Assembly (NCBI GenBank): GCA_014871385.1
Contig: CM026425.1
Coordinates: 7,727,243-7,791,242, forward strand
Direction of reading: 5' to 3'
Source: Ceratodon purpureus
Taxonomy: Eukaryota > Streptophyta > Bryopsida > Pseudoditrichales > Ditrichaceae
Length of the DNA: 64,000 bases
The position numbers and the translations under genes were made by a program. Shown piece after piece: positions 1 to 27,600 of this stretch (its first letter is position 1; every line of letters begins with the position of its first letter). The notes under the pieces were generated by a model. That model was not told the origin of the DNA. It did no database searches and saw only the letters and a program-made list of their open reading frames with translations.

Positions 1-1
1 G

Positions 2-490
2 GACAGTATTGTACAATTGGAACTAGCTATGGGTGTCGAAGTCCAAGCCTTAGAAGGTGCAAACGAAGAGCTTCAGATCTGTAAGGCAGCGGTCAATGTT
101 GCAAGGGGCCACATGCTTACTATAAAAACACCAAGAGTGTTCGAATACCCAAAGATGTATTCTATTCCACCACTGGGATATCCAGGTAAAGAGGTTTGTG
201 CATATTGTGGTCATGGATTCATTTGGAAGGCAGCTGTTCTTTCCTCCTGTGGTTGTTTTCTTCACCCTCCGTGTGCAGCAGAGATGGTATCTTGCGGGAG
301 TTATCGTTGCAAGGTTTGCAAGGACCTACTGCTAGCATCTTCTCCGATTCATCTTGCGGAACCATGGGTTGCACAGTTTGGTGGGAAGTTAAATACTCAA
401 CAAGAAATCGAGTGTACAAGCTTTGTTGCTGTTTTGAAGGCTGTTAGTGATAGTGATAATGCTCCAACTGTTTCTGGAACCAAGAATTGA
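2..490 (+). CDS. 3' part of a gene with a RING-like zinc finger (truncated at window edge)
   Basis: The frame is open from the window edge to a TGA at 488-490, so the 5' part lies outside and the true start is not visible. The stretch around residues 60-105 (counted from position 17) has the spacing of a treble-clef/RING-like finger: VCAYCGHGF, then SCGCFLHPPC, then YRCKVCKDLL, giving CxxC, CxC-x3-H-x2-C and CxxC ligand pairs. Fingers of this type usually bind zinc and often act in ubiquitin transfer. The spacing is not a textbook C3HC4 RING, so the E3 role is only a guess. The tail after the finger (EPWVAQFGG onwards) has no recognised domain. The gene converges on the ParB-methyltransferase gene, with the G-rich minisatellite between them. 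Confidence 0.6.
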   Translation, partial: DSIVQLELAMGVEVQALEGANEELQICKAAVNVARGHMLTIKTPRVFEYPKMYSIPPLGYPGKEVCAYCGHGFIWKAAVLSSCGCFLHPPCAAEMVSCGSYRCKVCKDLLLASSPIHLAEPWVAQFGGKLNTQQEIECTSFVAVLKAVSDSDNAPTVSGTKN

Positions 491-839
491 CAAGACCTAG
501 TCCTAATATCGTAGAGCACGACAATGCTCTATTTCAGTTGGAGTTTGGAGCAGCACTTAGCTATACATATATATAGTTTTACTTTTCGTACATCTTGCTA
601 AACTACGAGGGGATACATTCTAGGCATATCTAAGACAGATTCATTTTGTGGACAAACTGCAAATACAATTGACTGAAGCAGAGCTTGTTAAGGATTAGGG
701 TCGGTCATGTGGTCTAAAAAACTTTAACGAAACTGATTTGCTTGTTAAGGCTAATAATTTCAAAAACTGATTATATATTGATACAATTATGTATGTTGAG
801 AAATTAAAATATTGTAATGCTAGGTGTTGATGGACAGGG
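491..839. other. Spacer after the RING-like gene
   Basis: AT-rich DNA with no ORF of note. It probably contains the 3' untranslated region of the upstream gene. The G-rich array begins abruptly near 836. Confidence 0.5.
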
Positions 840-2215
840 TGCAGGAAGTGAGGAAGGGTAAAGGGGTAGTCACAGGGAGTTAGGAGGGGTGAGAGGGAGG
901 GGTAGGGACAGGGAGTGAGGGGGAGGGGTGAGAGGGAGGGGTAGGGACAAGGAGTAAGGGGGAGGGGTGAGCGGGAGGGGTAGAGACAGGGAGTGAGGGG
1001 GAGGGGTAGGGACATGGAGTGAGGGGGAGGGGTAGGGACAGGGAGTGAGGGAAGGGGTAGAGACAGGGAGTGAGGGGGAGGGGTAGAGACAGGGAGTGAG
1101 GGGGAGGGGTAGGGACAAGGAGTTAGGGGGAGGGGTGAGCGGGAGGGGTAGAGACAGGGAGTGAGGGGGAGGGGTAGAGACAGGGAGTGAGGGGGAGGGG
1201 TAGGGACAGGGAGTGAGGGAAGGGGTAGAGACAGGGAGTGAGGGGGAGGGGTAGAGACAGGGAGTGAGGGGGAGGGGTAGGGACAAGGAGTTAGGGGGAG
1301 GGGTGAGCGGGAGGGGTAGAGACAGGGAGTGAGGGGGAGGGGTAGAGACAGGGAGTGAGGGGGAGGGGTAGAGACAGGGAGTGAGGGGGAGGGGTAGGGA
1401 CAAGGAGTTAGGGGGAGGGGTGAGCGGGAGGAGTAGAGACAGGGAGTGAGGGGGAGGGGTGAGCGGGAGGCGTAGGGACAGGGAGTGAGGGGGAGGGGTG
1501 AGAGGATGGGGTAGGGACAAGGAGTGCGGGGTGGAGTGGAAGGGACAGGGAGTGAGAGGAGGGAGGGGGTGAGAGGGAGGGGTAGGGACAGGGAGTAAGG
1601 GAGAGGGTGAGAGGGAGGGGTAGGGACAGGGAGTGAGAGGGAGGGGTGAGAGGGAGGGGTAGGGACAGGGAGTAAGGGAGAGGGTGAGAGGGAGGGGTAG
1701 GGACAGGGAGTGAGAGGGAGGGGTAGGGACAGGGAGTGAGGGGGAGGGGTAGTGACAAGGAGTAAGGGGGAGGGGGTGAGAGGGAGGGGTAGGGACAGGG
1801 AGTGAGGGGGGAGGGGTGAGAGGATGGGGGTAGGGACAGGGAGTGCGGGTGGAGTGGAAGCGACAGGGAGTGAGGGGGAGGGGTGAGAGGGAGGGGTAGG
1901 GACAGGGAGTAAGGGAGAGGGTGAGAGGGAGGGGTAGGGACAAGGAGTGAGAGGGAGGGGTAGGGACAGGGAGTGAGAGGGAGGGGTAGGGACAGGGAGT
2001 GAGGGGGAGGGGGTAGTGACAAGGAGTAAGGGGGAGGGTGAGAGGGAGGGGTAGGGACAGGGAGTGAGAGGGAGGGGTAGGGACAGGGAGTGAGGGGGAG
2101 GGGTGAGCGGGAGGGGTAGGGACAGGGAGTGAGAGGGAGGGGTAGGGACAGGGAGTGCGGGTGGAGTGGAAGGGACAGGGTTGTAAGGGAGAGGGTGAGA
2201 GGGAGGGGTAGGGAT
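836..2215. repeat. G-rich minisatellite (about 26-bp unit), G-quadruplex-prone
   Basis: About 1.4 kb of tandem repeats. The core unit is 26 bp, built around GGGAGTGAGGGGGAGGGG followed by TAGGGACA. Some units carry an extra block such as GTGAGAGGGAGGGG or GTGAGCGGGAGGGG, so a higher-order pattern is visible. The + strand is almost pure purine with runs of three to five G at short spacing, which suits G-quadruplexes on + and a triplex or i-motif on -. Reading the - strand gives long open frames rich in P, L, S and T. I do not call these genes because all frames are open only through the low complexity. The array lies just downstream of the ParB-methyltransferase gene, and a decayed relative sits in one of that gene's introns (about 3838-4290). 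Confidence 0.9.
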
Positions 2216-2429
2216 TGGAATTTCCGGATAGTGGCGAGAAAAGTTAATTGACAAAAAATCCGTGTTAACTAGTACGAAAGAAAAAAAATTAACAATCAAA
2301 CAAGTTATATATGAAGACAAAATAATAAAAGAAAGAATTCATATAAAAGAGGTAGAAGTATATAGATCAGGAATTAATATCCGGAATCCAGAACCTTGCA
2401 GAGTCTTATGGTCCAAGTACTATAGAGTC

Positions 2430-5400
2430 TCATGGTATAAATTCATCTTCACTCTCCGAGGCACTTACATCTAAAAAAATTCGAACCCTGGGATCAAATC
2501 TCTCATGAGTAGATGACGACTCGCTAGTACTTTGCGAAGATTCTTCAGCCATTCGGGTTGCCAAATTCTCTGCGTAGCAAGGGAGTAGAAGGTCGGAGGT
2601 AGTTGGTGACTTGTATCCTGTCCAAGAGGTAATAGGACTCAAAAGGTCGGAGTTTGCGGGTGACCGGTACCCACTCCAAGAGCTCATCTGACTCAAACTG
2701 CAGTACAGTGTGAAAGTTAGTTTTATATCTGATTCCGGAATTCAATATACGTACAACGGATTATTTGACATAAAAGAACTTACTTACAGAGGTCAATTTG
2801 CTCCATGTCGGGCAATGGTTCTTCATCGTCCTCCATGGTAGCATCAAGAACCTCTGGGGCCGGGGCGATTTGTAGAGGTTTTAGTACCTCTTGAAAGATA
2901 CCACTATCAGCTTCAAGGGCAAGTATGTGCCTGCCAGTACTCATGGCCGCGCGAATAGAAGCTCCTGAGAATGTTCACATAGTAAGGCGGTTGCTATGGA
3001 ATAACGCAATAAAATTAAATCGTAATATGAGTCAAAGGAAAAGGCCTCACCTGTTCCAGCAGTGAGGTCGACGACTATGCCTTCGTTTGGGCTAAGGCTC
3101 GTGATGAACAGTTCAAGTAGAGAAACTGATTTCTCTTTAGGACCCCTCCACATCGTCCCATCCTTTTTAACTTTCAGAGCTGTCTCCTCAGTTACAACGT
3201 TGTGGATACAATCATCTTTCAGAAGGTTAACTTTGCCAAAACAGGGGTCGGGACGTATCACCAAAGTCTTCGGTTGCCTCAAAGAAAGCTTCAAAGATCG
3301 AACTAGCAGTGTAGCTCTAAACATCAGGGTCTGAAACGAGAAGCACACAAGTGGTAAGAGATTTATGACTTGGAAAATAGAGATAAGGTATAGGGATAAA
3401 TGAAAACGAAAGAGTCGCTTACGTATTTGTCGGGAGTAGTGGGATGGGTTAAATGCATCGAGTTTACGATCATCCAGTCATCCTTGTGCTTCAGGTTGTT
3501 GTTGTTAAGCCAAGAGCCAATCTCTCTCTTCAGCTGCGGATTATCTGGGTGGAACAATAGAAGGGCCCCGTCGTCGTGCATAAACTTCCTACTGAAGCCT
3601 ATAACAATCTTCAGGAAATCAGGTACCAAGGCATTCCAAACTGGCACCGTCGAGGACTCGGTTGAGATTCCGGGGACAGGCATGCCATCTGGAATTTCAG
3701 CAATCACCAAGTCAGCAGCCGGTCGAATATGATGAATTCCTTCGAAGAAAAATTGTCTTTCTGCTCCAACCTGAGAAGCATAGAAATTCGTTAGAAGGTC
3801 CTTCAAAACCTATGCCGTTGCCGGCAGTGGCTTAGAAGGTATGGAGTGGGGGTAGAGACTGAAGAGTCAGGGAGTTACTTTGAGGGAGTAGGGAGTGAAA
3901 GGGGGAAACGAGGGGATGGTAAGTGATTGAAAGAGAATAGGGAGAGAGAGGATCAGGGAGTGCACGCGTGGGAGGATGGGGTGAGAGAAGGTCAGGAAGT
4001 GACCGCGGTGGAAGAGCAAGAGAGGAAGGGACAGGGAGTGGTAGATAGAGTGAGACGGGTTAAGAAAGGGTTATGGAGTGAAAGGGATATAAGGGGGTAA
4101 GGAAGTGACAAGGAGTGACTGCGAGGGAATATGGGGGAGGGGGGATTAGGGAATAGTAGTGAAGGGAGTGGGGATAAGGGATGGGACAGTAAGGGAAAGA
4201 AAGGGTGGTGGGAGAGAAAGGGACAGGGAGTGATGTGAGAGTTGGGGGAGTAACGTTGGGACAAGGAGTGACAAAAGGGAAAATTGAAATAATGTTCGTA
4301 CCTCACATAGAAACGCCAAGGAATTATCGAATGAATTTGGGAACTTCTTATGCAGTTCCTTGTACTTAAGCATGCTGTGGAAAGAGTCATTAATAATGAG
4401 AACTCTCGAGTGACTCCCGGATGAAGTGACCCCTTGAGAGATGGCCATACTCTTTAGCGATGGTGGAGTAAAATCTCGAATTTTCTCGGCAGGCGCTTTC
4501 CCAGGCTGTACTGTACCGCCAACTGATCGACCTCCAGATTGGCCTCGTTTCTTCGGCTGCGTTTCAAGAATGGTAGTGTCGTTTGGAGCAATCACTTCCT
4601 GCTCACCATGCTCACCCCGGCCAGTGCTCGCAATAGTATTGGCAGGGATGTCCTCGTCTTCTCCTTCATCCCCTGCCTCCATGGCTTTCCGCTTTGCACC
4701 ACGGGTTTTGCCCTTCTTCTTAGCTTTAGGGGCAGCTTCGACTGGAGACTCAGAAGCAGACCCAGGAGGAGTACTCGCTTGGAGCTTTGCCAGGGCTGGC
4801 TGGAGGGAATCCCGCAGAGGAATATCGAAAGAAGGTGGCTTCATTGGTGGGCAGTCCAAATACCACCCACAACGCTCGTAATGGCATGCATCCCAAGCCT
4901 TCAATATGGCTTGGGTGTACATACACTCCGAGCCACTAGTGTCGAGGTAATTGGGGAAAAATGCTGGCACCTTTGACACGGCCTTCCTTGGAAACAAAAT
5001 ATACTTGAAGTAACGGTAGATGACCCTCCGCAACGCCTGGTTGAAATTAGGTTGCTGCTGCGCTGTCTTGTTCTTGTGCACGGGATCTGGACCCTTAAAT
5101 TCCCGAAAGAATGCCGTGTCCCATAGATTACATCGCATCCCATCGACATAGTCAGATATTGTCTCTATAGGGTCCTGTCCATCAGGATTGTAGTTGATCT
5201 CCACACCCATATCCTCCACCACGCCATTGAAGTGCTCCTCTGCCTCAACAGTTAACTATAATAACAGGCAATAGGATGTAAGATAACAGGGCAATTAAAC
5301 TTCTCGCATGAACAAATATATTTTGCCCAACGCTCAACAGATATAAAGAAAGTTCCAAAATAGTTTCTATGTTTTAAAGAATAATGTAATATTGAAGAGG

Positions 5401-8400
5401 AATGTGAAACAAACCTGCGCCCACCAAGTCGCACGTTGTAGCCACGTCGAGAATACAAGGTCCGAGAAGTTCTTCTTTGGAAATCGGTGAGACTCCCTCA
5501 TTTTCTCAGACATGTTCCACCTCTGAAGCCATTTAATCTTCATTGGGGTTGGCATTGCTGAAATTGCAAAGTTGTAAAGCTTCTCCTTCAACATCTCAGG
5601 AGTGGAGAATTTTTCGTAATGGATTTTTATCTCTTCAAGAAAAGCTGATGTGAGTTCTGGATCAGCAATCGGAAGCAGTTTCTTCAACTCCGACTGTTGA
5701 CTGTCCTCCACCTTCTTTACGGCGTTAGACACCCATTCATCAACGGATTTTCGAGTCCATTGACGCTCCTCGGGATGCATCTCATAGAAATTCCGCTCTG
5801 CTGCTGCAGCCGCCTCTCCAAGCTCTTGCTGTAATCACGAAATTGATTTAGTAAAATATTAGCTTAGTTTATTATGTGAATTATAGATGTGAAAATGAGT
5901 ACGTAAAATAGACGAGACATACCTGATTGAGCACCGCATTAAGGGACTCCAATGTCAATGTGTACCAGGTTCGTGTTCGACCAGCTTGTTTTGCCCTTGA
6001 TGCTTCAAGCGCTGCCGTGGGTACAAGTCCCTCAAAGTACGAGAGAGGTTGTGGAGCAATGCTCTGAATGCGGTACAACTTGTGTACTATATTGCCTTTC
6101 ACGTGAGACATTTGGTTTCTCCTGCAATGTAACCAATTTGCATTTAGAATTTCAATGCATTTTTGCAAAAAGAGATTTGAGAAAATGCTTGAATCATACT
6201 GAAATTAATGATTCGGAAAAGTACCAATTGACATCGTGAAGTGCTGTGACAATCGATGGCACGTCTCCTTTGGGGTCCAATATAATGCTGTCCACCGAGT
6301 AGTGCCATGAAATGTCGCCTTTATGGAACTCCTCAATTATAGGCAACCAAGCCTGGAGTCGATGATTTCCATCCCATACCATAAACATAAAATTTGAAAA
6401 AACCTTCAAGTCTTCATCTGCCTGAAGTTTCATCTCGAATTCCTCATTTACTTTTCGCCACTCAGGGCTCCAAGACTCGGTGATATCACTCGTGACCACC
6501 CTTGAAAGGCCTTTTTCATCAACAGCCGCAACATAGAAAAAGCCATTGCCTTCCATGTATCCGCTCGAAATGAAATAGGAAGCAAGACTAGAGACATCAC
6601 TCTTAAGATAGGGTCGAACAACAGGCAGTGAGATCATCCTGCAAAGTGGGATACTTAATCGGCACTTCGACTTCGGCTCCCACTTCAATGCATCTAGCCT
6701 TGATGCTGTGTTCCCAGTGGCTGCCCCGACTAGATCATGAAGTTTTAAATTTACCTCACTCCTTGTAAGAAGAATCGGATCTCCCTCTGCAAAACAATCA
6801 AAGGGGTTGTTAGTGTCACCATCTAAAGTAATCCCGTTGCCAGCATTGGCACATAAGTGGGCATTTAGTTATACAAAAATAAGCTAAACAAGATACTCAA
6901 AAGCGTATCAGTGGCACGGCCCCAGGCGTGACCCTAATTAAAAACTCATCGATGTACACAGTTTCAGACCACGCGGGTGTATCCCGAGGCGGTGCCTTTG
7001 CCGGCACCCCCTAAAGTGGTGTCGATGACATCACGACCTCAATCGATGCGGGCACCACCTGAGGCGATGCCGGTACCGGCACCCCCTTGAGAGGTGCCGA
7101 ACCCGGCACGGCCTCAGTCGTTATCGGCACCTCCTGAGGTGGTGCCGTTGCCGGCACCCCCTTGAGCGGTGTCCAACACGACACGACCTCAGTCGATGCC
7201 GGCACCACCTGAGGCGATGCCGGTACCGGCACCCCCTTGAGAGGTGCCGAACCCGGCACGGCCTCAGTCGTTGTCAGCACATCCTGAGGTGGTGCCGTTG
7301 CCGGCACCCCCTTGAGCGGTGTCCAACACGACACGACCTCAGTCGATGCCGGCACCACCTGAGGCGATGCCGGTACCGGCACCCCCTTGAGAGGTGCCGA
7401 ACCCGGCACGGCCTCAGTCGTTGTCGGCACCTCCTGAGGTGGTGCCGTTGCCGGCACCCCCTTGAGCGGTGTCCAACACGACACGACCTCAGTCGATGCC
7501 GGCACCACCTGAGGCGATGCCGGTACCGGCACCCCCTTGAGAGGTGCCGAACCCGGCACGGCCTCAGTCGTTGTCGGCACCTCCTGAGGCGGTGCCGTTG
7601 CCGGCACCCCCTTGAGTGGTGTCCAACTCGACTCGACCTCAGTCGATGCGGGCACCACCTGAGGCGATGCCGGTACCGGCACCCCCTTGAGAGGTGCCGA
7701 ACCCAGCACGGCCTCAGTCGTTGTCGGCACCTCTTGAGGTGGTGCCGTTGCCGGCACCCCCTTGAGCGGTGTCCAACACGACACGACCTCAGTCGATGCC
7801 GGCACCACCTGAGGCGATGCCGGTACCGGCACCCCCTTGAGAGGTGCCGAACCCGGCACGGCCTCAGTCGTTGTCGGCACCTCCTGAGGTGGTGCCGTTG
7901 CCGGCACACCCTTGAGCGGTGTCCAACACGACACGACCTCAGTCGATGCCGGCACCACCTGAGGCGATGCCGGTACCGGCACCCCCTTGAGAGGTGCGGA
8001 ACCCGGCAAGGCCTCAGTCGTTGTCGGCACCTCCTGAGGCGGTGCCGTTGCCGGCACCCCCTTGAGTGGTGTCCAAGTCGGCACGGCCTCAACCGATGCC
8101 GTCATCACCTGAGGCAATGCTGGTACCGGCACCCCTCTGTGACTTGTCCTTTACGATAATAGACCTGCATATTATGAGCTGCATTTAGGTCGTTCTCAAG
8201 GCGATGCCAGTAAATGCATTGCGTATAGAGGCATCGAAGAGCAAAAAAGGACCCATTCAAGGACTGCCGTTGCCGGAATAGATTATCACGGCCTTCCTGT
8301 ATGGTCTAGCATGGAACTTGAATCCATGCCGTTGACGGCATCGTCATTTGCAAGGCAATATGCACTTCTAATATGCAACGGCGTGTATTCAGAGTACCGC

Positions 8401-9204
8401 AACTTAAGCCATGCCGTGAACGGCAGGACCACGACCGGCACCCATAAGATAAATGAAAGGCTTTCTGAAGAGCATAATCGACACCGACAGTAGCCCTACG
8501 AGGGCCTTAAAAATATTCCCTAGAGGTTTGTCGTGGCAGTGCCGTTAACGGCACTGCCCAACGCATCAGAATCCTCTGGAAGCCTACGCCATATTTCGCC
8601 AAGAAGTAAACCAAGATTAGCTTGCATTAGGTAGTTAAACTACTCCTTACAGAGCACCGCCGTCACCGACAGCGCTCCAGTGAAAGCCTTCATTTTTCTA
8701 CTAGCAAGGTTATCATGCTCGTGCCGTTAATGGCATTGCACTAAACAACACAAGACGCGGTCGTATGATACTAAGCAGGAGCTCCATACTGCGCGCAAAT
8801 GGCCTCCCTCAAGGCCATGCCGTCAACGGCACCGCCGATAGAAGGCTGGTCAATTATTTAAGTAGACACCCAAAGGAGCAACGGCGTTACCGACAGCGCC
8901 CTTTAGCAGGGGTCCTCATACTACGAAACCAGACTGACACATAAAGGCATCGCCTTTTCAAGCTAATTCAAGAATCACCCAAATGAAACCCAAGCAGCAT
9001 TTAGGTTAGAATCGAACCGCTCTGTTCAGGCTGCGTGGACTGAACGATACCGGTGTCATCTTCTACTCGCTCAGACTGTCTCTCGCTAAGCTCGTTGTCG
9101 ACTTCCATGTCGGTCTTCTTGTCACCGTCCAGTGCGTGATCCTTGTCGACCTCCTGTTCGTGATCCCCGCTGACCTCTTCTTCGCGATCCATGTCGACTT
9201 CCAT
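2430..9204 (-). CDS. ParB/sulfiredoxin-like domain fused to an N4/N6 DNA methyltransferase-like domain
   Basis: Proposed exons on the - strand: 9204-9018, 6786-6225, 6121-5923, 5828-5415, 5255-4302, 3770-3423, 3330-3051, 2964-2784, 2697-2430. The frame is kept at every join (3393 nt, 1130 aa). Residues about 105-210 look like a ParB/Srx fold: IPLCRMISLPVVRPYLKS, a helix ending LASYFISSGYMEG, then VWDGNHRLQAW, which matches the family's GxxR motif. Residues about 773-1000 look like a PF01555-type methyltransferase in beta order. First comes DLVIAEIPDGMPV, where DPPY is expected, then FLKIVIGFSRKFMHDDGALL, and finally the SAM-binding motif DLTAGTG and GRHILALEAD. The middle (exon 5) has a lysine-rich, NLS-like stretch. 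The catalytic DPPY is not conserved, so methylation may be lost. The first join uses a weak donor and the 5' end is uncertain. Domain calls are from motifs only. Confidence 0.62.
3838..4290. repeat. Decayed G-rich repeat inside an intron of the ParB-methyltransferase gene
   Basis: The intron between 3771 and 4301 contains many scattered GGGAGTG, AGGGACAGGGAGTG and GGGGGAGGGG motifs. They are the same words as in the 836-2215 array but with mutations and irregular spacing. This looks like an older or independently degenerated copy of that minisatellite. A TGCCGTTGCCGGCA palindrome sits just next to it, at about 3814-3827. Confidence 0.75.
7001..8135. repeat. 150-bp higher-order minisatellite (two 75-bp halves), about 7 copies
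   Basis: Units repeat with a 150-bp period. The word CCCCCTTGAGAGGTGC recurs at about 7083, 7233, 7383, 7533, 7683, 7833 and, mutated, 7983. Each unit is two related 75-bp halves, one with CTTGAGAGGTGCCGAACCCG and one with CTTGAGCGGTGTCCAACACG. Because 75 is divisible by 3, long frames stay open on both strands. The - strand frame 8132-7011 would give 25-residue P/T/V/A repeats such as APLKGVPVPASPQVV. My exon chain places this array inside the first intron (9017-6787) of the ParB-methyltransferase gene, so I treat it as non-coding, though a coding role in an alternative transcript is possible. The array is full of palindromic GGTGCCG/CGGCACC and CCGGTACCGG words. Confidence 0.9.
8200..8910. 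repeat. Dispersed palindromes of the TGCCGTTAACGGCA type
   Basis: Within the same intron and outside the tandem array, short imperfect palindromes recur every 60-130 bp. Examples: GCCGTTGCCGG near 8267, TGCCGTTGACGGCA near 8327, ATGCCGTGAACGGCA near 8410, TGCCGTTAACGGCA near 8542, CGTGCCGTTAATGGCA near 8722, TGCCGTCAACGGCA near 8818. Two further relatives near 8660 and 8883 read GTCACCGACAGCGC or GTTACCGACAGCGC. They may be worn copies of the 75-bp unit or protein-binding sites; the sequence alone cannot say. Confidence 0.7.
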
Positions 9205-9765
9205 TGATGCCGACCCCGTCGGTCTTGGGCGCACAGCACGAGGTCCCTGCAAGAAGTAGCGAAGAGGACCGTAAGAATCTGCTGATGGAAAGCAATCTAA
9301 ACCCTAGAAAGCTCATAAAGAACGCAAGTTCATATGATAATACCTTCCTTTGGCAGCACTGTTCGCGGCGCTCACAAGCTCGGGACCCTCAGCCACCAGC
9401 AACAAACCTTAATCCTAAGACGTTTTAGCTAGGTAAGCAATTCTCAGGCAGTGAGGAATGCCGGCGACGAAATAAGAGAATATCGAGACAGATTGTAAAT
9501 GCAAAGATATTTTCTACTTGGATGGACTTGTGGCAGGACTAAACATCACTATGTATACAATTATAATTTGGAGACGGGGTGGTCGAGATTGATACTGATA
9601 GTTGATGTGACATCCCTATATAATATGAAATGACAACCGTACCTTCCCATCATAATATAACCCACACTCTCAGAAGCCAATTCATTATTCAGTTTATACT
9701 CACTCAATCCTTCTCTACTCTATGCAATCACCTTAAATCAAATGATCACCGCTAGCTTAGCTTAC

Positions 9766-10030
9766 CGGTGAGTCGTTAGTTTCACTTTTCTCAGAGAGAA
9801 CTGTTTGTGCGTTTCTTCCACGACGCCCGTACTGCTTCGTTGGAGTGTGCTCCCCAGAATGTCCATCCGCTCGAAACACTACCTTTTCAAACTCTAGCAC
9901 CTTTGTAATCCCATCCTTCATAAAACGCTCACTCTGTTTCTTTGCTCTTGCCATTCTACTACTTGCTAATGCTTTTGGGTTACTAAAATATATACCTTTC
10001 TTCCTTCTCCTACTCCTCTTGTTAGTTGCC
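9766..10030 (-). CDS. Possible small basic exon upstream of the ParB-methyltransferase gene
   Basis: The - strand has an open stretch from an acceptor-like CATATGCAG (about 10030) to a good donor CCG|GTAAGC at 9766. It encodes a basic stretch beginning ATNKRSRRRKKG and continuing SSRMARAKKQSERFMKDG, followed by GEHTPTKQYGRRGRNAQ. This could be an N-terminal, nuclear-targeted exon of the gene that continues at 9204-2430, or part of an unrelated short gene. I could not find an intermediate exon that keeps frame with the 9246-9018 exon. No domain is recognised. Confidence 0.3.
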
Positions 10031-10054
10031 TGCATATCACAGAGAAACAACTAA

Positions 10055-10527
10055 CCCAACACAGACACACATTGTAACTATCCTTATATCACTAAGATCT
10101 AATACATGAGAGTCCTTCCATTAGTATGTAATACTTGATTTGTTGCTGTAACCCTAATGTAGCTTCCGGCTACTTACCTTTAATTTAAATGGATGACCAC
10201 TTGCCAGCAAGTCACGTCAGAAATATTTATGATTTAATTCCTATTTAAAACATTGTGTCTCTTTCAAACTAAAAAAGACGGCTTCGACTAATCTAAGATA
10301 ACACTTTAAACAAATAGAATATGCAACATGATGTGTTCATCAAAGCGACGGCTACATGATAAAAATAAACTTCGAGTTAGTTCACTAACAGAAAATAATT
10401 TTTTCATTCCAAAGTCGTTAATGCTGCCAACTCTGGTGGATCACATAAATTGATGAGCATCGAAGCAACATTCCTCTCATTCTAGAGTTTCAAATTCTTT
10501 ACTCTAGTCCTATCCTCTCTCCCTGCG
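10055..10527. other. Upstream region of the MULE-like transposase gene
   Basis: AT-rich, with no ORF. It should hold the promoter and 5' leader of the transposase gene. I looked for long terminal inverted repeats matching the region after 14.95 kb and saw none. Confidence 0.4.
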
Positions 10528-13500
10528 ATGGCTCATCTCCCTGCAGACAGAGTGTTAGGCATGGCCGTGCTCAGAGCACATGGTGTTGGTATTCCACTTA
10601 CAGTACGTGTAGATGAGGATGGGTTGGCACTTGTGACAGCACAACGCCTGAGCCTCAGATTTCACTACAGAGAGGAAACTGTTAGTATAGAAGAAGAGAT
10701 TTATGACGAAGAGACAGATGTGATCACTCATACGGTAGATCAGGTTTCTGAGAAAGATGATGATGATAACAGGTTGTGGAACCTTTATCCTGGTAGGTAC
10801 AGAGTTTATGGTCTCACAGAGTCACAAATGCAAGCGTCTACAGAGATTCTAACTCCTCGTCGTTCATCTACTTGTACTATTCAGACTCCTCTGCCTCGTG
10901 ATGTGAAGGTCAAGGTAGAGCCTGGCTTAGATACTCCTGCTGTTACGCCAGTCATATCCCTTTCATCAGACGAGGAGACTAGTCCTATGAAAGCATCTCC
11001 TGATGTTCCAAAAGAGGTTGTAGAATCTAGGCCGCCCAATACATTTCCAGTGAAATGTTCTAGTCTTTCCCAACCCTCAACAGAGGAGAATGTTAGTGTG
11101 ATTCCGCTCATTAGGAAACTTGCCGAGAGACCAGGGAGGAAAAACATTCTCAAAAAAATAGATTACTCCAGAGTGAAACACGAGAAGGTTGAGTACTTGC
11201 CTGCGGTGTTCAACGGTCCAGTAGTTTTTGAGCTTCCCCCAATTGGTGAAGGAGCTGCAAAGTTGCAGGCCAAGGCAATGCAAGGAATGGACAAGCGTTA
11301 CGATGGCCATGTCTGGACCAAGACAAAGACCACCAACATCACTAACGACGTTTGCCTTTCGTTTCGCTACTCAGTCTGCGCTGGTTGGCTGCGATGCAAC
11401 AACAAAGACTGTGACTTTCTGAACCGTCAGCCTCGAATCGCCAAGGTCAACGAGACAGAGTTTGAAGGATGTACCCTTCAAGCGTTTCTGGTGGGTCAAC
11501 CGCCCCCAACAAGTTCAACACTAGTCTGCAAGGTATGTAAGGAACCTCCTGCATGTATTGCTACATGTGGAGCTAAGATTTATTATGTTTATGGGAATCT
11601 AAATCAGACTAGGGCATGTATCCATGTTGGGACTCATGATCACCCAGTTAAGGTAGGGGACTATAGGGACTCTAAGACAGAAATCAATAGCCTGATCGAA
11701 GAACAAGTTGAGAATACTCCTGGAGCTAAGAAGAGTGCCGTCGTGTTGGAGGCAAGCAAGGTCCTGATAGGCAGTTATTTTCTTCAGCCTGAAGATGCAC
11801 CCCCGAGGAAACTGACGATGGAGGAGCTTGTTCCCGTACTTGACCGCTGCAAGGACATGGCTTCTCCAAATATCCGCAACAAGGTGATGACATTTAGGCT
11901 GCTGAGGAGGTACGGCGTCGTGGACGCCATCACCAAGCTCCGTGGTATCAGTCTATGGGCCTATGTCCAAGAGAACAAGTTCCCAGGGCAGGGGGCTGAT
12001 CTTGACAAGGTATTCCTCTTCAAGATGTCTGAAGTTGGACCTGGAAGTGGCGTCGACTTGGTGAGAAGAATGCAGCCCGGTGGAGATCTGCAAAACGCAT
12101 GGGTCATGTTTGATCATGTGAAAAGAGTAAAGTACTGGACCACGATGGCCTGCCATGTGTACGACTCAACCTACTGTCGTGTCATGACGATTGCCACATG
12201 TGACATGCAATCCGAGGATAGCGAAGCCCAAATTCTTTTTTGGCAAAACCTCAACCTAGTCATGGAAAGGAATGGCGTCAAGGCGCCAAACTTCAAGGGA
12301 TTCATGGCGGACAGCGCTCAAGCAAACTGGAATGCAGTTCGAACTGTGTATGGAAATGGCAAGAAGGAGGACCCGATGGTGGACAGAGAGAGAACTTGCC
12401 TGTTCCACTGGACACAATCCATGGTCAGTCACACGGAGAAGCACATCCCCGAGGAGCTGTGGGAACAGCACAAGAAGATGTGTCACCAGTACAGGAAAGC
12501 GCAGAGTATGGAAGAAGCGGATACCTTGTATAACGCCCTGCGCGCTTGGTGGGTATCCGCAGGAGTAGCGTCGGATAAGGCCTTGAACAAACTTGAGCTC
12601 TGGCTTGCATTCTGGCATTACCGTATTCGACAATGGGGTGGCTTCATGACCCAGGTACGATAATTCCTATCTAAATTGTTTTCCTACTTCTTCAATTTAG
12701 TCTCTCTCGTCAAGGTTGATTTATCAATTCTAAAGACTTTGTGTGCTTTCCTTGCAGAAATTTACAGAGGAAGAATTCTCAGAAATGCCTTCATGCAACT
12801 TGGCAGAAACTGTCCACAACAAATGGCTCCAAGCTTCAGGAAACAACGGCCAGGATTTGTATGTAGCTACTGTGGACGACTTCGTCCGTGCATTTCTACA
12901 GGTCGTAAACTTTTACCAGTTCCTGAAAGGTGATGTAGGCGGCACAGGACCGACCAAGAAGGAACTCAAGCTAAGGAACGCTGAACGCAGGGCAAAAAAG
13001 ACAGGAAACCCCATACTTTTAGAGGATGCGATGTTGGAGATGCCCGGTGCACATGAGTTCTGCACAAGACTGCCTCACATGCCAGGAGAAGAAGTGTTTG
13101 GGTCTATCAAGCGGAAGGCAGACCTTCCCATTGGAGCTGAAGAAGAATCACATCGTCCGGACAAGGTAAACTATTCTCGTCCTAAAGGTTCAGGACGTGC
13201 TGTCAGGGCTCGCACTATGGCGATGCCTGTCATAGTGGAAGATGACATCGAAGATGAGACAGAGGTAGTTGAAGTTCAACCTACGGCAGCAACATCCCAA
13301 GATACCCCATCATCACCAGTGAACGAGAAGGGGGTGCGACATGTCAATGCAGTTGAAGAAACCAGGGTAAATGTCAGGGAGTGGCACATTTCGAGACTGC
13401 TCAAGACTTCTGCCAAGTGCTGCTGGGCACAGAGAGCAGTTACGAAAAAGAAGTGTACCGAGAAGATTGTAAGGGGTGCTAATTCGACTGCAGCGCCTAC

Positions 13501-14251
13501 CTACACCGGAGTCTGGACCAACTTTCGCAGAAACATAGCTGAGAAGACAGAGTTCTTCTTCTGCTCCGACGACATTGAGAGGTGTGTAAAGGGTACGAGA
13601 CGCAGGTGGGTTGCCAAATACTCTAAGGACCTAGAGATGCCTCCGATTCCAGAGGTTTGGCCGGTGAAGCTAGGTACAAACCTAAACCTCACAGAAATTC
13701 GAGCACTTGAAGCGGCAGGGTTTCAACTCCCGAAGAAGATCCCCGTCTCCCCGAGACGCCTCTTCTCTGCTGCCCCGCCTCCTGCAAATCTGAGATCAGT
13801 ACCTGTTCCTGCTGAAGCTGACCGCTACCCTGGTAAGAGAGACGGCAAGATGGTGAAGCGCACTGCCACTCGTCCGAATCCGGCTCAGCGCCTCTCAATG
13901 GGTTCATCCGACTCCCTCAAAGCTCGCCTACGCTCAGTCACTATGATACCTCACCCGGGCCATGGTTGCATCATCGGGCTTGATTCCGGCGTTGCTCCAG
14001 CCATCACACAGTACCACATCACCATCAGCTCCTACCCAGCTTGCACTTGCCCTGCATTCAGAAAGACCATGACGAAGTTCAGAGGACGGACGCAATTCTC
14101 TTATTGCAAGCACCTTTATTATATTCTATTGAAGGTCTGCAATCGTGACCCTGATGCCGATCTTTTCATCCATGCGCCCACTTTTAGTTTCAACGAGGTC
14201 AAGATAGTCCTAGAGAGTGGAATCTTGACTCACCCTTTGGCAAAGAAATAG
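10528..14251 (+). CDS. MULE-like (MuDR/FAR1-type) transposase with C-terminal SWIM finger
   Basis: Two exons, 10528-12654 and 12758-14251, joined by a 103-nt intron (CCAG|GTACGA ... CTTGCAG), give 1206 aa. The N-terminus is acidic and includes VKVEP and VISLSSDEE, resembling a SUMO-acceptor and a SUMO-interaction motif. Residues about 285-380 are a cysteine/histidine region (CNNKDC, CKVCKEPPACIATC, HVGTHDHP), as in zinc-binding N-termini of MULE transposases. The likely DDE core follows: MFDHVKRVKYW near 526, GFMADSAQANWNAVR near 593, then CLFHWTQSM. A SWIM-type finger, CTCPAF ... YCKHLYYIL, lies near 1138-1165 and is typical of MuDR/FAR1 proteins. Mutator-family transposases cut and paste DNA in the nucleus. 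The ORF is intact, so the element may be recent, or the gene may be domesticated; no terminal repeats were identified. Confidence 0.72.
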
Positions 14252-14512
14252 TATCTAGAGTACTTTTTGTGGACATGTATTCACCTAGTGGACGGTGGTT
14301 TAGGGTGAGGCTATGTCTTTTGTGATTGAATTTTTCCTTGTACTGAGTCAGCAATACAAATCTCGTATTGCCTATTCCAATATAAAGGTTTTGTCATTCA
14401 CATTTATTACATTGTGTAACATTAGCTTTTGCATTGGACAAGTGCCCTCTGTTCTTTCTATCCACTAACAGTTGCACTGTACTAATGCCATCAATACATA
14501 TTAATAGCCATT
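14252..14512. other. Shared 3' region between convergent genes
   Basis: About 260 bp between the MULE-like transposase stop and the end of the convergent ORF. AT-rich and probably the 3' untranslated regions of both. No other feature seen. Confidence 0.4.
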
Positions 14513-14953
14513 TTATTCCTTGAACTTGATGCGTTTAGGTATGCCACTTGCATTTTCAGCATAATTAGCAACCTCCAGCTCAACCACAGGACTTGCTACA
14601 TCCACATTTACTCTTGGCACTTGTCGTAGGTGGGGACGCTTTAACAAAGGTCGAGCTACACTCTTTCCTCGCAATGCTTCCCTAGAATAAGTCCCAGGTG
14701 GAATCTTCCCAACCTTGGAATATGCATGAGGTGGCATTGGCACAACCGGCTCCTCTTCAAGTACTACGAGACAACTTGGCTCTTTAACAGCCAATGGTTG
14801 TCCTACCACGTCTAATGCTATATCGACGTCACCATTTCCAGTATGATCTTCAATGCACTCATTCTCCTCAGCTTCCCCCTCAACCTCTACAAACGGATGA
14901 AATGGGCCTTCCACATCATCCAATGAAAGAGCAGTATCCCCGGCTACTTCCAT
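14513..14953 (-). CDS. Unrecognised 146-aa acidic protein, convergent to the transposase
   Basis: A single intact ATG-started frame of 146 codons. The first half is strongly acidic (EGEAEENECIEDHTGNGDVD); the second half is more basic (RPLLKRPHLRQVPR) and the protein ends IPKRIKFKE. No domain is recognised. It converges on the MULE-like transposase with about 260 bp between the stops. This resembles the mudrA/mudrB layout of maize MuDR, in which a second non-transposase gene is transcribed toward the transposase gene. I see no sequence similarity to MURB, so the parallel is one of position only. It could also be a chance ORF or an exon of a longer gene. Confidence 0.4.
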   Translation of the reverse strand: MEVAGDTALSLDDVEGPFHPFVEVEGEAEENECIEDHTGNGDVDIALDVVGQPLAVKEPSCLVVLEEEPVVPMPPHAYSKVGKIPPGTYSREALRGKSVARPLLKRPHLRQVPRVNVDVASPVVELEVANYAENASGIPKRIKFKE

Positions 14954-15849
14954 AGCCTTAACACCTTCCTTCAGGAACTTGCTTCAAGAGGAGAATGAAC
15001 AAAGAGGAAGAGACCTTCCGTTGCCACCACTTAAATATCCATGAGGTAGGTGCTTGGCGCCCTTGAAAGCTGGAATATATAATGTTAAACGGATTTCATC
15101 CTACTCAATGGGTGACTCGGATAATAAACATTATATTCTTTAATTAAGAAACAAAAAAAAATATAAATAAAATAGTGCGTCACTTTAAAAAGATCGTTTA
15201 AAATTTTCAAAGGGAATAAAAAAAAAAAATTAAAGAAAAAACAAATGAGAAAATAAAGTCAAAGTTTGGAATTAACGCTCTAGATATGCAACTGAAAGAG
15301 GGTGTTTGTACACCAAGAGGAAAACAGGGCCAGAAATGAAAATTGAAATGGGAAAACAATATAAGAATTGAGAAAGAAAAAAAAATAGAGGTGGACATGG
15401 AAGAAGTTTTGTGAAAACAGTGTGAAACGAAATTTAAAAGAAAGTCATTAAAAAAATAAAAAATTAGAAATAATAACCAAAGGTTGAAAATAGAGATCAA
15501 GATAGGCAACTCAAACGGGGTGTTCGCAAAATACCCTTACCCATATGACCAAAAAGGAAAATTGGAATGGAATATTTAGAAAGTTAAAAAGGTTGAAAAT
15601 AAAAGTCGAGGATGAAACTCAAAGAGGGGCGTGTCCACCAAGGGAAAATAGGATCAACCAAAAAAATAAAATTAATTGGAAATAGATACCAAACATGAAA
15701 ATGAATTGAGAATATAAAGGATGAAAATGATAAAACAATTCATAAGATGAAACGGAAAAAAACTTAAGGCTGATAGAAAGATAAAATGGAATAATAGATT
15801 ATATTAGAAATAGTGAATTACAGTTCATTCTGTTCTACTCCTTATAATT
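14954..15849. repeat. AT-rich spacer with three degenerate copies of a short repeat
   Basis: A-rich DNA without credible coding. A loosely conserved word recurs three times: GCAACTGAAAGAGGGTGT near 15288, GCAACTCAAACGGGGTGT near 15507 and GAAACTCAAAGAGGGGCGTG near 15616. The first and third are followed by a conserved ACCAAG-GGAAAA block. This suggests an old tandem or segmental repeat now heavily mutated. Confidence 0.5.
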
Positions 15850-16361
15850 TCACCTATGCTTCGGAGAGACCCAAATACCTAGCCTTGGAGCAAGTATTTC
15901 ACCCGTCTGCAACCAAAGAAAGGCGTTCCTAGTGTCACTTAACACAGACCTCAACTCATCTAACTCACCACAGCTAAGTTCACCTAATGTCGCAGTCTGC
16001 AATGTATCATTGTTAATTGGAGTAGCTAGAGACCAAGAGCTATGGAAGATGTTCCAGTTCAAGTTAAATCGATCTGCTTCATAGTCTACCTTGGAGGTCC
16101 AATGCCATCCAGTATATGAATCGTAATCCCACTTGGCCAGGCAAGGGAAGCATATTCTGTACTGCTGTCAATCTCCCTCTTCCAAAGCTTCGAAACAGCA
16201 CGAGCATTTTCAACATCCTGAAATGTGACTGTCGATGCAGGATTAAAACATTCTGTTCTAGTAGAACCCACACACACCCAGAGGTCAAGGCCATTCGCCA
16301 TTCGTTGAAGCAAATACTGAAGAATTGTTTCACAAGCAATGACTTCAAGGGAATCGCTCAT
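15850..16361 (-). pseudogene. Unrecognised ORF broken by one frameshift
   Basis: The - strand frame from ATG 16361 encodes a protein-like sequence (MSDSLEVIACETILQYLLQR ... SGITIHILDGIGPPR) and stops at 16086. One base off, with no gap, the frame continues VDYEADRFNLNWNIFHSSWS to a stop at 15850. Both halves have normal amino-acid composition and no low complexity, so together they look like one protein of about 170 aa disrupted near 16087. No GT-AG intron fits between them. The family is not recognised. It could be a decayed gene copy or a sequencing indel. Confidence 0.45.
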
Positions 16362-17165
16362 TCTATCAGTATTGTGCCTATCAAATGTATTCTACAAATC
16401 GAAGCTCTGGTGGAGATGAAACCAGTGTGGTTTATATGGATATTTGCTTGACAGAAATGGCTCCAATTGATCTTATCGATTGAGATGAATTATTGATATA
16501 GACAAACACTTTCTCAAGGAATATATCTCGGTTTACGCAGTCCATTATCGTACAATTTTTTAATAATTCCAAGAAGTTTTGAAAGTTAATATTCTAGGCT
16601 TTTTGAAATATGCTTTTTCTTCGGATTCCAACTGTAAAGTGGCAATAGCTATGACTGTACTTTCACAGTTTTTTAGAAATTCATAAGGAACCACAGAAAG
16701 TATATGTACTATGAAGAGAAAATGTACATATAACGATTCATATATTAATATGACATCATCATGACGTCAGCCCTAATTTTACCACTTCAATGTTATCATG
16801 GTTCATAAAGTAATCTGAGGTAATAAATCCACGGTATTACATACAGTAACTTTTTTAAAATCTATAAAAAGACATCAAAATTTAGTATTTTCCCACGGTT
16901 ATAGGGTGCATTATTTTTCAAAAAAGATGTTGAAATGTCAAATTTCTGCTCTCTAATATCTGCTCTCCGCTCTCCGCTCTCCGCTCGCCGCTCGCATGCT
17001 AACTTTCCCCATCCAAGTGGAAAAAAAAAAAAAAAAAAAAAAAAAACACCATGCCCACGTCTACATGTCCCCGATACCTAGTATCATGTCTCAATGGGAT
17101 CTCATATGTCTTAAGTATGGTGCAGGCTCAAGAAGCCGCTATCTGTACAACGTAACGAAGCCCCA
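16362..17165. other. Spacer with CTC(T/C)CG tract and poly-A
   Basis: No coding seen. It contains a short repeat of CTCTCCG/CTCGCCG words at 16963-16995 and an uninterrupted run of 26 A at 17021-17046. A retrotransposed 3' end is possible on the + strand, but no source gene was recognised before the poly-A. Confidence 0.5.
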
Positions 17166-24600: not shown

Positions 24601-27600
24601 TTATAAAACGGAGTAATCTACTTCGACGTCGTCGAAACGGGGGATATCGTCGTCATCATCATCGTCTACGTGGTCAACATCATCGTATTCCCCATCCTCC
24701 GTCTGCTGTTCAACTTCAGCATCTACCATTGCAACCCGTTGCGCTGGTATGTTCTCTCCTTCTACTCCGTCATCCTCTCTTCTGTTATCAATGGACGATC
24801 TCATTCCGTCGTTCCTGGTCACTGGTTCCATGAAACCAGGGGCACCAATCACGCCTTCGTCGACATCATTCTCGTTCCGTCGAGAACGAGGCTCCTTTTG
24901 CAGAACCACACTCCAGGCTGGATTCTCTCGGTCGTCCACAAGGAATACCTGGTCAACGTCATTGAGTAAGTTTGATGGTACTGTAGTAATACATAGACAG
25001 CGAGGTCATTGAATTTCTTCTGTCACCGACGACTGAAAGAGAAAACAATTTAAATTATTATGCGGGACTACCTGGGATGCATGAGCTGGAAGAATGTATG
25101 GCTCTGAGTTGGCTCTTTGATAAGCTCCTCGTTTTATAAGCCAAAATCCATGAGCGTCCTTGCGCATGGTGGGGTTCGATGTGACGTTCGGCTTTATCCA
25201 GTCACAGCTCATTACATTTATCTGTAAGACGTTGTAGTCCAGCCGGATTATCTTTCGCAGAACACCTACGTATTCTAGATTTGCTTGAACAGGTCGGCGG
25301 TCAGTAGCCGAGAACTGACACAGCGTGGAAGCAATACACGCAACACCGCTGTCATACGTTTTATACGGGTTACCTTCCACTGGATCTTCTATTCTATAGT
25401 GGTTCCCATAAGCGGACATTCCCCTGTACTCTTCAATCTCTGATTTAGGCAAGTTAGCAAGATTCCTCACTTCAGGGCTGACATGTACATTCTGTGAAAC
25501 TAGCAGTTCGATCCGACTATCGAGCCAAATCGAGAACGACTGAAACTGCCTTCCTCCTCCTCTCTGCCTGTGTTGAAGCAAAAGAGTATCGTATTCCCTG
25601 TTGACAATAACAGCGTTAAATTGCGCTGTTCCATTGGTGTTAAATTGCGGTGTTCCATTCTCCCTATCGCACACATTATTTAGAAATCCATAGAAGGTGG
25701 TCATCATAGGAATCTTGCAAAGAATTCAGAACGATGAATTGAATACTACAGGGGATTTACTTATCGCCGAAGAGCTTCCGTAGCCTGGTAATTACTGATG
25801 ACAAATTCATGTATCATCCGTAGTTCAGCGTCCGGCATGACTCTTCTCAATGGGGCACCCTCTACAACTTCGCCATTAGTCCTGTCATCGTCCTCGGGAT
25901 CCCAAATCCTACGCCACCCCGGGTAAATGGAAAGGTGCTCAGCCATGAACCCTAGGGCCTCCGCATATAGATAACCAGTTGCAATAGAAGCCTCTGGTTT
26001 GTTTCGATTTCTGACGTACTTCTTCAGTACATATAAGTATCTTTCCGCTCCGTAACACCACCTTGCGTGGACAGGACCCAACCAGTCCAGCTCGTCGACT
26101 AAATGGAGAACCAAGTGGGGCATTATATCGAAGAAGGCCGGAGGAAACCATACCTCTAAGAGGCACATGGTCTCCGCAACATACTGCTGTAGAGGTAGCA
26201 TCTCATTTGGGTCGATAGCCTTTTGACATATTTTTTTAAAACAATGGCCCAGACGTATAACTGCATCCCTCGCGCCGCGACAAAGAAGACCTCTGATCGT
26301 CGCCGGAATAATGTCTTGAAGGAGGACGTGATGGTCGTGGCTTTTGAGACCATGGAGTTTCCTCTGGCTAACATGACGCATCATTCCCGCAGAGTAGGTT
26401 GAGGGTACCTTAACGGATTTCACTTGTTTCAGAAAAGCATCTAGCTCCTCTGATTTGAAAGAGTACGGAGGATGAGGTTTTAAGTAGTTGCCGCGTCCAG
26501 GACGGGGACGGAGATGTAGCTCTTCGTTCACGCCTGCAGCCTCCATGTCCTTTCTAACACTCACAGTGTCTCTCTCGCCTAAAAGGTATCCGAGGATACT
26601 TGCCGACACATTTTTTTCAACATGCATTATGTCAATTGTATGTCGTATTCGTAGTTTCTGCACAATGTACATACAGATTCATATCAGTTTTGTAAAAGAA
26701 CAGCTACTCATGAGGTTGAGATCACATCGGGTCCACCCACATTATCAATTGGCTACCGTTACACCTTCCTGAAGTCGTGACATGGAGATGCTGCAGATGA
26801 TACCGTAAACATGTATGTTAATCCGTACAGCTCTCCTATACAATGGTGGTTCTCCTCATATATGTGTGGTTCATGAACCTTTAGAAATTAGCCGCACCTA
26901 CTGGGTTCAACCAGCTACAAATTTAGAAAGATACTGAATATACTGAACTACTACTGCAGTATATATAACTTACATTAACATAATAATTAATGTTCCATAA
27001 ACTTACGACAAGAATTGAAACTTCCATAGAACAGAGAAACTAGAAGAACTCTGGTCTGTATGCGACGTTAAAGTCGAAATAAGTGTTTTGCCGACCTGTG
27101 GTGTTCTAATTGTCACTGTCGACGACGAATTCATATTACCAAATTATTTCTGCAGTCACTAACATTGAATTTTACACTTCTGATTTATCAAGACCTCTTC
27201 ACGGCCGAAGCCCGATTCTCCTACGAATTGCACAGGGTCTGTGAAATCAGTCATTTTGTACTGATGTTTTGGAATTCGTTTCTGGAATACGGTAATCCGG
27301 TAAATCAAACATTAACGATTACCGGATTCAGGAGAAACAAAAATCAACGTACATCTGTATCCGAAGGGGTCTCATAAATCGACGATGTCATCATATTTTA
27401 TAGTGCCAAGACGTCAATAAATTTTAATATTCATTTAATATAAAGACGTGGACACAAAAGTGCGAACACTGAATACGGTCGTTTCTATGATCTTCTTATA
27501 TTCCCCAAACCCCAATATGGCTACATTCTTATGGTGTATTATATGAATATTCCGTTCTGTCCTGAGGTTATTATATTCATGCATAACTAAGAAGAAGCTT

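Follow-up and report, generated by a model that had tools for sequence, protein, structure and literature searches.

How a moss comes to carry an intron-rich gene that places a ParB/Srx-like domain ahead of a DNA methyltransferase-like domain is the question raised by a 64,000-nucleotide stretch of the Ceratodon purpureus genome (GCA_014871385.1, contig CM026425.1, positions 7,727,243 to 7,791,242; hereafter the window). A reading made from the sequence alone (the sequence-only reading) had proposed an old transfer from a prokaryote or virus into a plant gene. Prokaryote-type domains are indeed present in this plant genome, but the ParB-methylase gene, as we call it here, is carried by a many-copy transposon, of which it is an accessory gene, and is better described in those terms than as the outcome of a transfer into a plant gene. 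The best explanation overall, to which we give an even chance of being correct, is that it encodes a transposon accessory protein whose ParB-like part binds a palindrome repeated in the element's own introns and which thereby marks or shields the element copy.

The transposon is delimited by its copies. One block, extending from −2544 to 17010 (coordinates are window positions, negative values lying to the left of the window start), is common to three near-identical insertions; its termini form an inverted repeat that includes a perfect stretch of 37 base pairs (bp) and carry repeats of their own (GCGAGCGGCGAGCGGAGAGCGG), and the 9-bp target-site duplications differ from one insertion to the next (ATCCAAGTG, AGCTTCGAA, and GTCTCTGTA). 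The shared block, the terminal inverted repeats, and the distinct duplications together therefore identify a transposon of ~19.6 kb, and a fourth insertion, C12, resembles them at its ends and is flanked by a duplication of 10 bp. In the window element, the transposase side bears the GGGGAAAG end; C12 and C6a (L020-L025) have this end on the other side, the gene block thus being inverted relative to the termini. The element and its transposase occupy the following positions.

1..17010, no strand: portion of the transposon within the window; the element starts with GGGG... at −2544 and finishes with ...CCCC at 17010
17011..17019, no strand: 9-bp target-site duplication ATCCAAGTG, right-hand copy; its left-hand counterpart ends immediately before −2544
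10528..12663, plus strand: transposase exon 1, 711 residues, divergent to the ParB-methylase gene; linkage across copies, and D, D, C-x2-H, conserved
12734..14251, plus strand: transposase exon 2, 505 residues, SWIM-like C-x-C...C-x-H

Mutator-like elements (MULEs) have target-site duplications of 8-11 bp and transposases with D..D..C-x2-H and SWIM-like motifs. The moss element shares the terminal inverted repeats and duplications within that range (9 bp in three insertions, 10 bp in one), and its transposase keeps D, D, C-x2-H and the SWIM-like C-x-C...C-x-H in aligned copies down to ~49% identity, whereas no MULE transposase domain was recognized, the resemblance being one of motifs only: no Pfam model matched the transposase at E <= 10, and a search of solved-structure sequences with its first open reading frame (ORF) returned nothing. 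The transposase thus looks Mutator-like from its motifs and the 9-bp duplications, and because there was no Pfam match we name it MULE-like rather than MULE. Since Sola elements generate a 4-bp duplication, the 9-10-bp duplications of the moss element probably reflect another superfamily than theirs. Another transposase of this family (~49% identity; L027, 1701-6002) adjoins the element in copy C2b and is probably a neighboring or nested relative.

Genome searches matched exon 5 of the ParB-methylase gene in 125 of 125 scored candidates (of 2067 first-look candidates; 51-100% identity, most of them stop-free) and exon 2 in 150 of 150 (of 1870), copy counts that, coming from scored candidates, are lower bounds. 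When both exons are considered, 59 of the 63 scored transposase matches have a ParB-methylase exon within 15 kb and divergent; exon 5 by itself accounts for 49 of the 63, every one divergent. A plant host gene that came from a prokaryote, the transposon copies being captured duplicates of it, would account for the many introns and the prokaryote-type domains; seen from the gene, moreover, a scored transposase was located within 15 kb of only 48 of the 125 exon 5 matches, a lower bound given that just 63 transposases were scored, so that a stand-alone copy may exist. However, the identical divergent placement in those 59 cases and the retention of both genes in diverged elements make such an origin very improbable. 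Chromosome C6 (110.5 Mb), which we presume to be the V sex chromosome, holds 57 of the 125 scored exon 5 copies (46%) versus 30% of the genome.

The gene itself comprises nine exons on the minus strand (9204-2430), which splice into one frame of 1130 residues, as the sequence-only reading had proposed. Five other copies, of which three diverge by ~20% in exon 5, retain the splice sites of exons 2-8 at the same position and in the same phase; the exceptions to an intact model are C6a, which has lost a donor and has internal stops, C3, which has a frameshift, and the truncated copy L004, which has stops. In the protein model, a ParB/Srx-fold domain precedes a conserved middle region, which is followed by a basic linker and then a beta-class methylase-fold domain; these parts are distributed over the exons as follows.

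9018..9204, minus strand: exon 1, residues 1-62, acidic N-terminus
6225..6786, minus strand: exon 2, residues 63-249, predicted ParB/Srx-fold domain
5923..6121, minus strand: exon 3, residues 250-316, C-terminal to the ParB core, strongly conserved
5415..5828, minus strand: exon 4, residues 317-454, conserved
4302..5255, minus strand: exon 5, residues 455-772, N-terminal half conserved, the rest a variable basic linker
3423..3770, minus strand: exon 6, residues 773-888, motif IV region of the predicted methylase fold, with EIPDGMPVPG at 797-806
3051..3330, minus strand: exon 7, residues 889-981, WRGPKEK and most of the S-adenosylmethionine (SAM)-site motif I DLTAGT(G), from Pfam and hhalign
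2784..2964, minus strand: exon 8, residues 982-1041, end of the predicted methylase fold (ALEAD)
2430..2697, minus strand: exon 9, residues 1042-1130, C-terminal tail, last residues SESEDEFIP

The acidic start of exon 1 and its ...QPEQSG ending recur in copies C6a, C12, C2b, C2a, and C3, although the exon 1 donor of the window copy (GTTCGATT) is weak; a 1119-residue model with an earlier exon 1 donor was dropped because the other copies run on to QPEQSG. The longer exon 8 donor was taken because it yields the conserved C-terminus, and C-termini similar to that of exon 9 occur in C2a, C6a, C12, and C2b; a 1076-residue model ending in another frame was discarded, its stop not being conserved in C6a, C12, and C2b. 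A stretch resembling a nuclear localization signal, which the sequence-only reading had also pointed out, lies at residues 630-645, inside the basic linker of exon 5.

The fusion protein is under strong purifying selection, the ratio of nonsynonymous to synonymous substitution rates (dN/dS) being ~0.1, and it therefore works for the element. Pairwise comparisons of copy C5 with C12, C2b, and C6a gave 0.107-0.108 overall and, by region (numbered after the 1119-residue model, exon 1 excluded), 0.055-0.062 for the ParB part, 0.092-0.099 for the methylase part, and 0.25-0.30 for the linker; C6a against C12 gave 0.135, and the closest pair, C2b against C12, gave 0.29 from few changes.

The identity and order of the two domains, ParB/Srx-like and then N4/N6 methylase-like, stand as the sequence-only reading had them, on the evidence of fold prediction, hhalign, and a PF01555 match. 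For the first domain, fold prediction shows the ParB N-domain fold of the ParB/Srx-fold superfamily, and the G-x-x-R signature of that superfamily is found in GNHRLQA, invariant in six aligned copies; copy L008, outside this alignment, has GNYR at the GNHR position. The pattern [DKN]GNHR..A is present in 101 of 120 ParB-part homologs (the 120 listed of 261). On the other hand, sequence searches had little to offer: Pfam matches of six family members at E <= 10 included no ParB model, a solved-structure sequence search with the ParB alignment found nothing, and a phage tblastn with the ParB part gave just three matches, at E 3-10. The moss domain shares 10-16% identity over the aligned part with the N-terminal CTPase domain of bacterial ParB, Noc, and KorB, and the moss protein differs from bacterial ParB in being eukaryotic and multidomain; no helix-turn-helix or ParA-like partner was identified, neither having been specifically searched for.

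For the second domain, hhalign and fold prediction show a beta-class N4/N6 DNA methylase fold with motif order IV-X-I. PF01555 matched the domain at E 1.7e-5 with 25.3 bits, under the gathering cut-off of 26.7 (an earlier full-length model gave 22.6 bits); tblastn searches with the methylase part matched phage DNA methylases at E 2e-4, and a solved-structure search with the methylase alignment gave weak methylase matches, the best at E 0.009. The catalytic motif IV has the general form (D/N/S)-(P/L/I)-P-(Y/F/W), its fourth residue being aromatic in known active enzymes, and beta-class N6/N4 methylases such as CcrM, M.BceJIV, RsrI, and the bdelloid N4CMT have D-[PL]-P-[YF]. The homologs of the methylase part, in contrast, have [DE]-x-P-[DE] in 49 of the 52 counted (the remaining 15 of 67 did not match the search pattern). 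Among these 52, the first residue is always acidic (D in 32, E in 20) and the fourth is D in 29, E in 22, N in one, and aromatic in none; it is D in all 10 genome copies in which the reading of exon 6 extended to this position, and three of the 15 uncounted homologs also lack the aromatic residue (P0006 NYPDG, P0045 DIPEG, P0024 YFPDG). Catalytic activity is therefore doubtful or altered, and the protein is not classed as an active methylase: "DNA methyltransferase," as the sequence-only reading had it, holds here for the modeled fold and not for an activity.

Two interpretations of this domain have to be weighed. It may be a pseudo-methylase, a catalytically dead DNA- or SAM-binding scaffold acting by occupancy or as the partner of another enzyme; METTL14, with its EPPL motif, is a pseudo-methylase kept as a scaffold. 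The replacement of the catalytic tetrapeptide within an otherwise conserved fold speaks for this, whereas the retained SAM-site motif is something that a pure scaffold does not need, and losing the motif IV aromatic residue alone need not end catalysis; we consider the scaffold plausible, at somewhat less than an even chance. An active enzyme that methylates the element's own DNA at adenine-N6 or cytosine-N4, as a self-mark made despite the odd motif IV, appears rather unlikely. In its favor, selection has preserved the fold together with the WRGPKEK region and the SAM-site motif I DLTAGTG, motif IV always opens with an acidic residue among the homologs counted, and related phage methylases have D-L-P-Y rather than D-P-P-Y/F in five of eight cases; self-marking is also the published reading for an Ectocarpus relative (in passages of PMC12477816). 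Nevertheless, the D, E, or N found at the fourth position in every homolog counted, and the D of all genome copies read, weigh against it.

What the ParB-like part may bind is suggested by a 14-bp near-perfect palindrome, TGCCGTTAACGGCA, that recurs in the introns of the ParB-methylase gene. Exact copies number 1344 in the whole genome versus 0 for the reversed control, and a control palindrome of equal composition occurs 0 times and its reverse twice; a GGTACC-centered variant gives 72 versus 5. In the window element there are 24 sites with <= 3 mismatches to TGCCGTTAACGGCA in 19.6 kb, versus 2 in 54.4 kb of surrounding sequence, and 20 block shuffles of the element gave a mean of 0.6 sites and a maximum of 4. 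All but one of these sites are in intron 1, 17 of them in a tandem array with 75/150-bp periods (6982-8135).

6982..8831, no strand: palindrome array of intron 1, 23 of the 24 element sites
3813..3826, no strand: single palindrome TGCCGTTGCCGGCA in intron 5

An assignment of 179 sites over 12 regions placed none in a mapped exon, the map taking in both transposase exons and exons 2-9 of the ParB-methylase gene but neither its exon 1 nor the element's third gene, described below. The sites occur 5′ of exon 2, within introns 4 and 5, and, in one copy, inside the transposase intron; one is outside the window element. They are not independent, because they include tandem repeats and near-identical copies. 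Copies L030 and L031 carry 7 and 8 exact palindromes, respectively, within ~1 kb upstream of exon 2, and L029 and L032 have near-matches only. Among 128 distinct sites from nine regions, picked by their TGCCG/CGGCA arms, the center is TTAA in 44, TTGC in 28, and GTAC in 16.

The association with the family holds outside the window, in a test that rests on 50 listed sites per palindrome form. Of the exact sites, all on C1, 37 of 50 have a scored family exon no more than 6 kb away, in surroundings that make up 0.34% of the stretch, and the same is true of 46 of 50 GGTACC-centered sites. In a blind test, two C1 palindrome clusters without a nearby scored exon 5 were fetched from the palindromes alone, and one, L041, proved to have a ParB exon (62% identity) and a transposase (~75-77%). 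There were misses as well: 13 of the 50 listed C1 sites and 4 of the 50 variant sites are not near a scored exon, although one of these four is 3 kb from a scored family transposase, and the other blind cluster, L042 (C1:7084000-7090000), has no ParB-methylase, transposase, or third-gene match within 6 kb. L042 is either an element fragment or a case of such sites being used elsewhere.

It is possible, although we doubt it, that the palindromes act as RNA or DNA hairpins in splicing, transcription, or replication, or are a passive satellite expanded in introns. Much of the window array is a tandem repeat, and the arms beyond the core are complementary at 56% of positions, versus 48% when arms are taken from different sites of the same locus and 35% from different loci, so that the arms of one site pair better than those of different sites; the most palindromic copies are L041 (15.6/18) and L031 (14.7/18), in which palindromic arms extend ~50 bp, and the least is L029 (7.2/18). 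Yet the 14-bp core recurs unchanged in subfamilies, L030 and L031 among them, whose ParB exon is only 62-68% identical to that of the window, with flanks and spacing that vary, and selection for a hairpin only would not be expected to fix one core sequence. A role as internal binding sites of the transposase, rather than of the ParB-like protein, seems unlikely: three L041 palindromes do lie in the transposase intron, but the palindromes are internal and the element ends have repeats of their own.

Under the accessory-protein explanation, the ParB-like domain would recognize TGCCGNNNNCGGCA, the palindrome of the element's own introns, in a parS-like manner, might then load and spread as do the CTP (cytidine triphosphate)-dependent clamps of bacterial ParB, and would so bring the methylase-fold domain onto element DNA. 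The protein would coat, mark, or shield the element copy; given the degenerate motif IV, we consider it likelier that the protein shields the copy or modifies it in an altered way than that it carries out ordinary N6-adenine or N4-cytosine methylation. The benefit would most likely be escape from host silencing, the role of VANC for Arabidopsis VANDAL elements, or else control of transposition. We know of no ParB or methylase fold in VANC. VANC proteins are anti-silencing proteins of VANDAL elements, and their targets diverge rapidly (PMC10398659). The moss protein resembles them as an accessory protein of a DNA transposon with target repeats in noncoding regions of the element, countering silencing being the role of VANC and a proposal for the moss; in contrast to the fast-diverging VANC targets, the moss core palindrome is common to subfamilies.

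The architecture, on the other hand, has a counterpart in the brown alga Ectocarpus, where the transposon Sola1-1_Ec32 (21.5 kb) is described as encoding a ParB-like and N4/N6 methyltransferase accessory protein of 1104 residues; the authors proposed that proteins of this type attach to the element encoding them and modify it, and green and red algal cases of the architecture are cited there, the references including Petroll 2025 (Bostrychia) and Iyer 2011 (passages of PMC12477816). The moss protein is like it in length (~1100 residues; 1130 versus 1104), in its domains, in a gene opposite in strand to the transposase, and in element size (~20 kb; 19.6 versus 21.5), and unlike it in its host and its 9-10-bp duplication, the likeness being one of description; the passages on Sola1-1_Ec32 mention neither motif IV nor palindrome arrays (PMC12477816). 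VANC is the closest functional precedent (PMC10398659) and the Sola1-1_Ec32 protein the closest structural one (PMC12477816). A ParB-methylase transposon gene is thus known as a kind from Ectocarpus (PMC12477816), and a moss element with 9-bp duplications is new; our analysis adds a land-plant case, a motif IV that is degenerate, and a specific sequence as candidate site, of which the latter two look new. Searches of the open-access literature for precedent found neither a moss gene of this kind nor the TGCCGTTAACGGCA palindrome, and a term search of a paper on MULE evolution (PMC6446971) gave 0 occurrences.

As for the origin of the fusion, no donor was identified among 67 methylase-part homologs and the 120 listed of 261 ParB-part homologs, which include two from Ceratodon purpureus and may include prokaryotes. 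Scans of viral contigs with the whole protein and the ParB alignment confirmed no relative, and of the 7994 candidates scored in a whole-protein phmmer search, none matched at E <= 0.001. The remaining features of the element and of the window are these.

−1228..487 (1..487 in the window), plus strand: third element gene, ORF of up to 572 codons, Cys/His-rich C-terminus, RING-like by eye
883..2214, no strand: minisatellite inside the element and downstream of the ParB-methylase gene, G+A-rich (T+C-rich when read on the minus strand), periods 26, 39, 91, and 168
14513-14983, minus strand: small ORF inside the element, 156 codons, no Pfam match
9757-10050, minus strand: small ORF inside the element, 97 codons, no Pfam match
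25761-29496, minus strand: remains of a CACTA-type transposon, Transposase_21 (PF02992, E 2e-60) and DUF4218 (E 6e-29)
38815-40047, plus strand: F-box protein ORF (PF12937, E 7.9e-10)

The third gene is ~64-66% identical in copies C6a, C12, and C2b, which also have arrays similar to the minisatellite; its one Pfam match was at chance level (E 0.9).

Accessory DNA-modifying or anti-silencing proteins of transposons reveal how such parasites evade plant silencing, and a strongly enriched candidate target makes the published suggestion of binding and modification directly testable. The altered catalytic motif, for its part, cautions against annotating genes of this kind as working DNA methylases. 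More tentatively, the element may carry a partition-like module, in which a ParB-type clamp is fused to a (pseudo)methylase fold and parS-like arrays sit in the introns of the genes that it keeps active, so that the transcription units of the element would recruit and spread their own protector. If true, this module would be a eukaryotic counterpart of ParB-parS that serves epigenetic self-protection rather than segregation.

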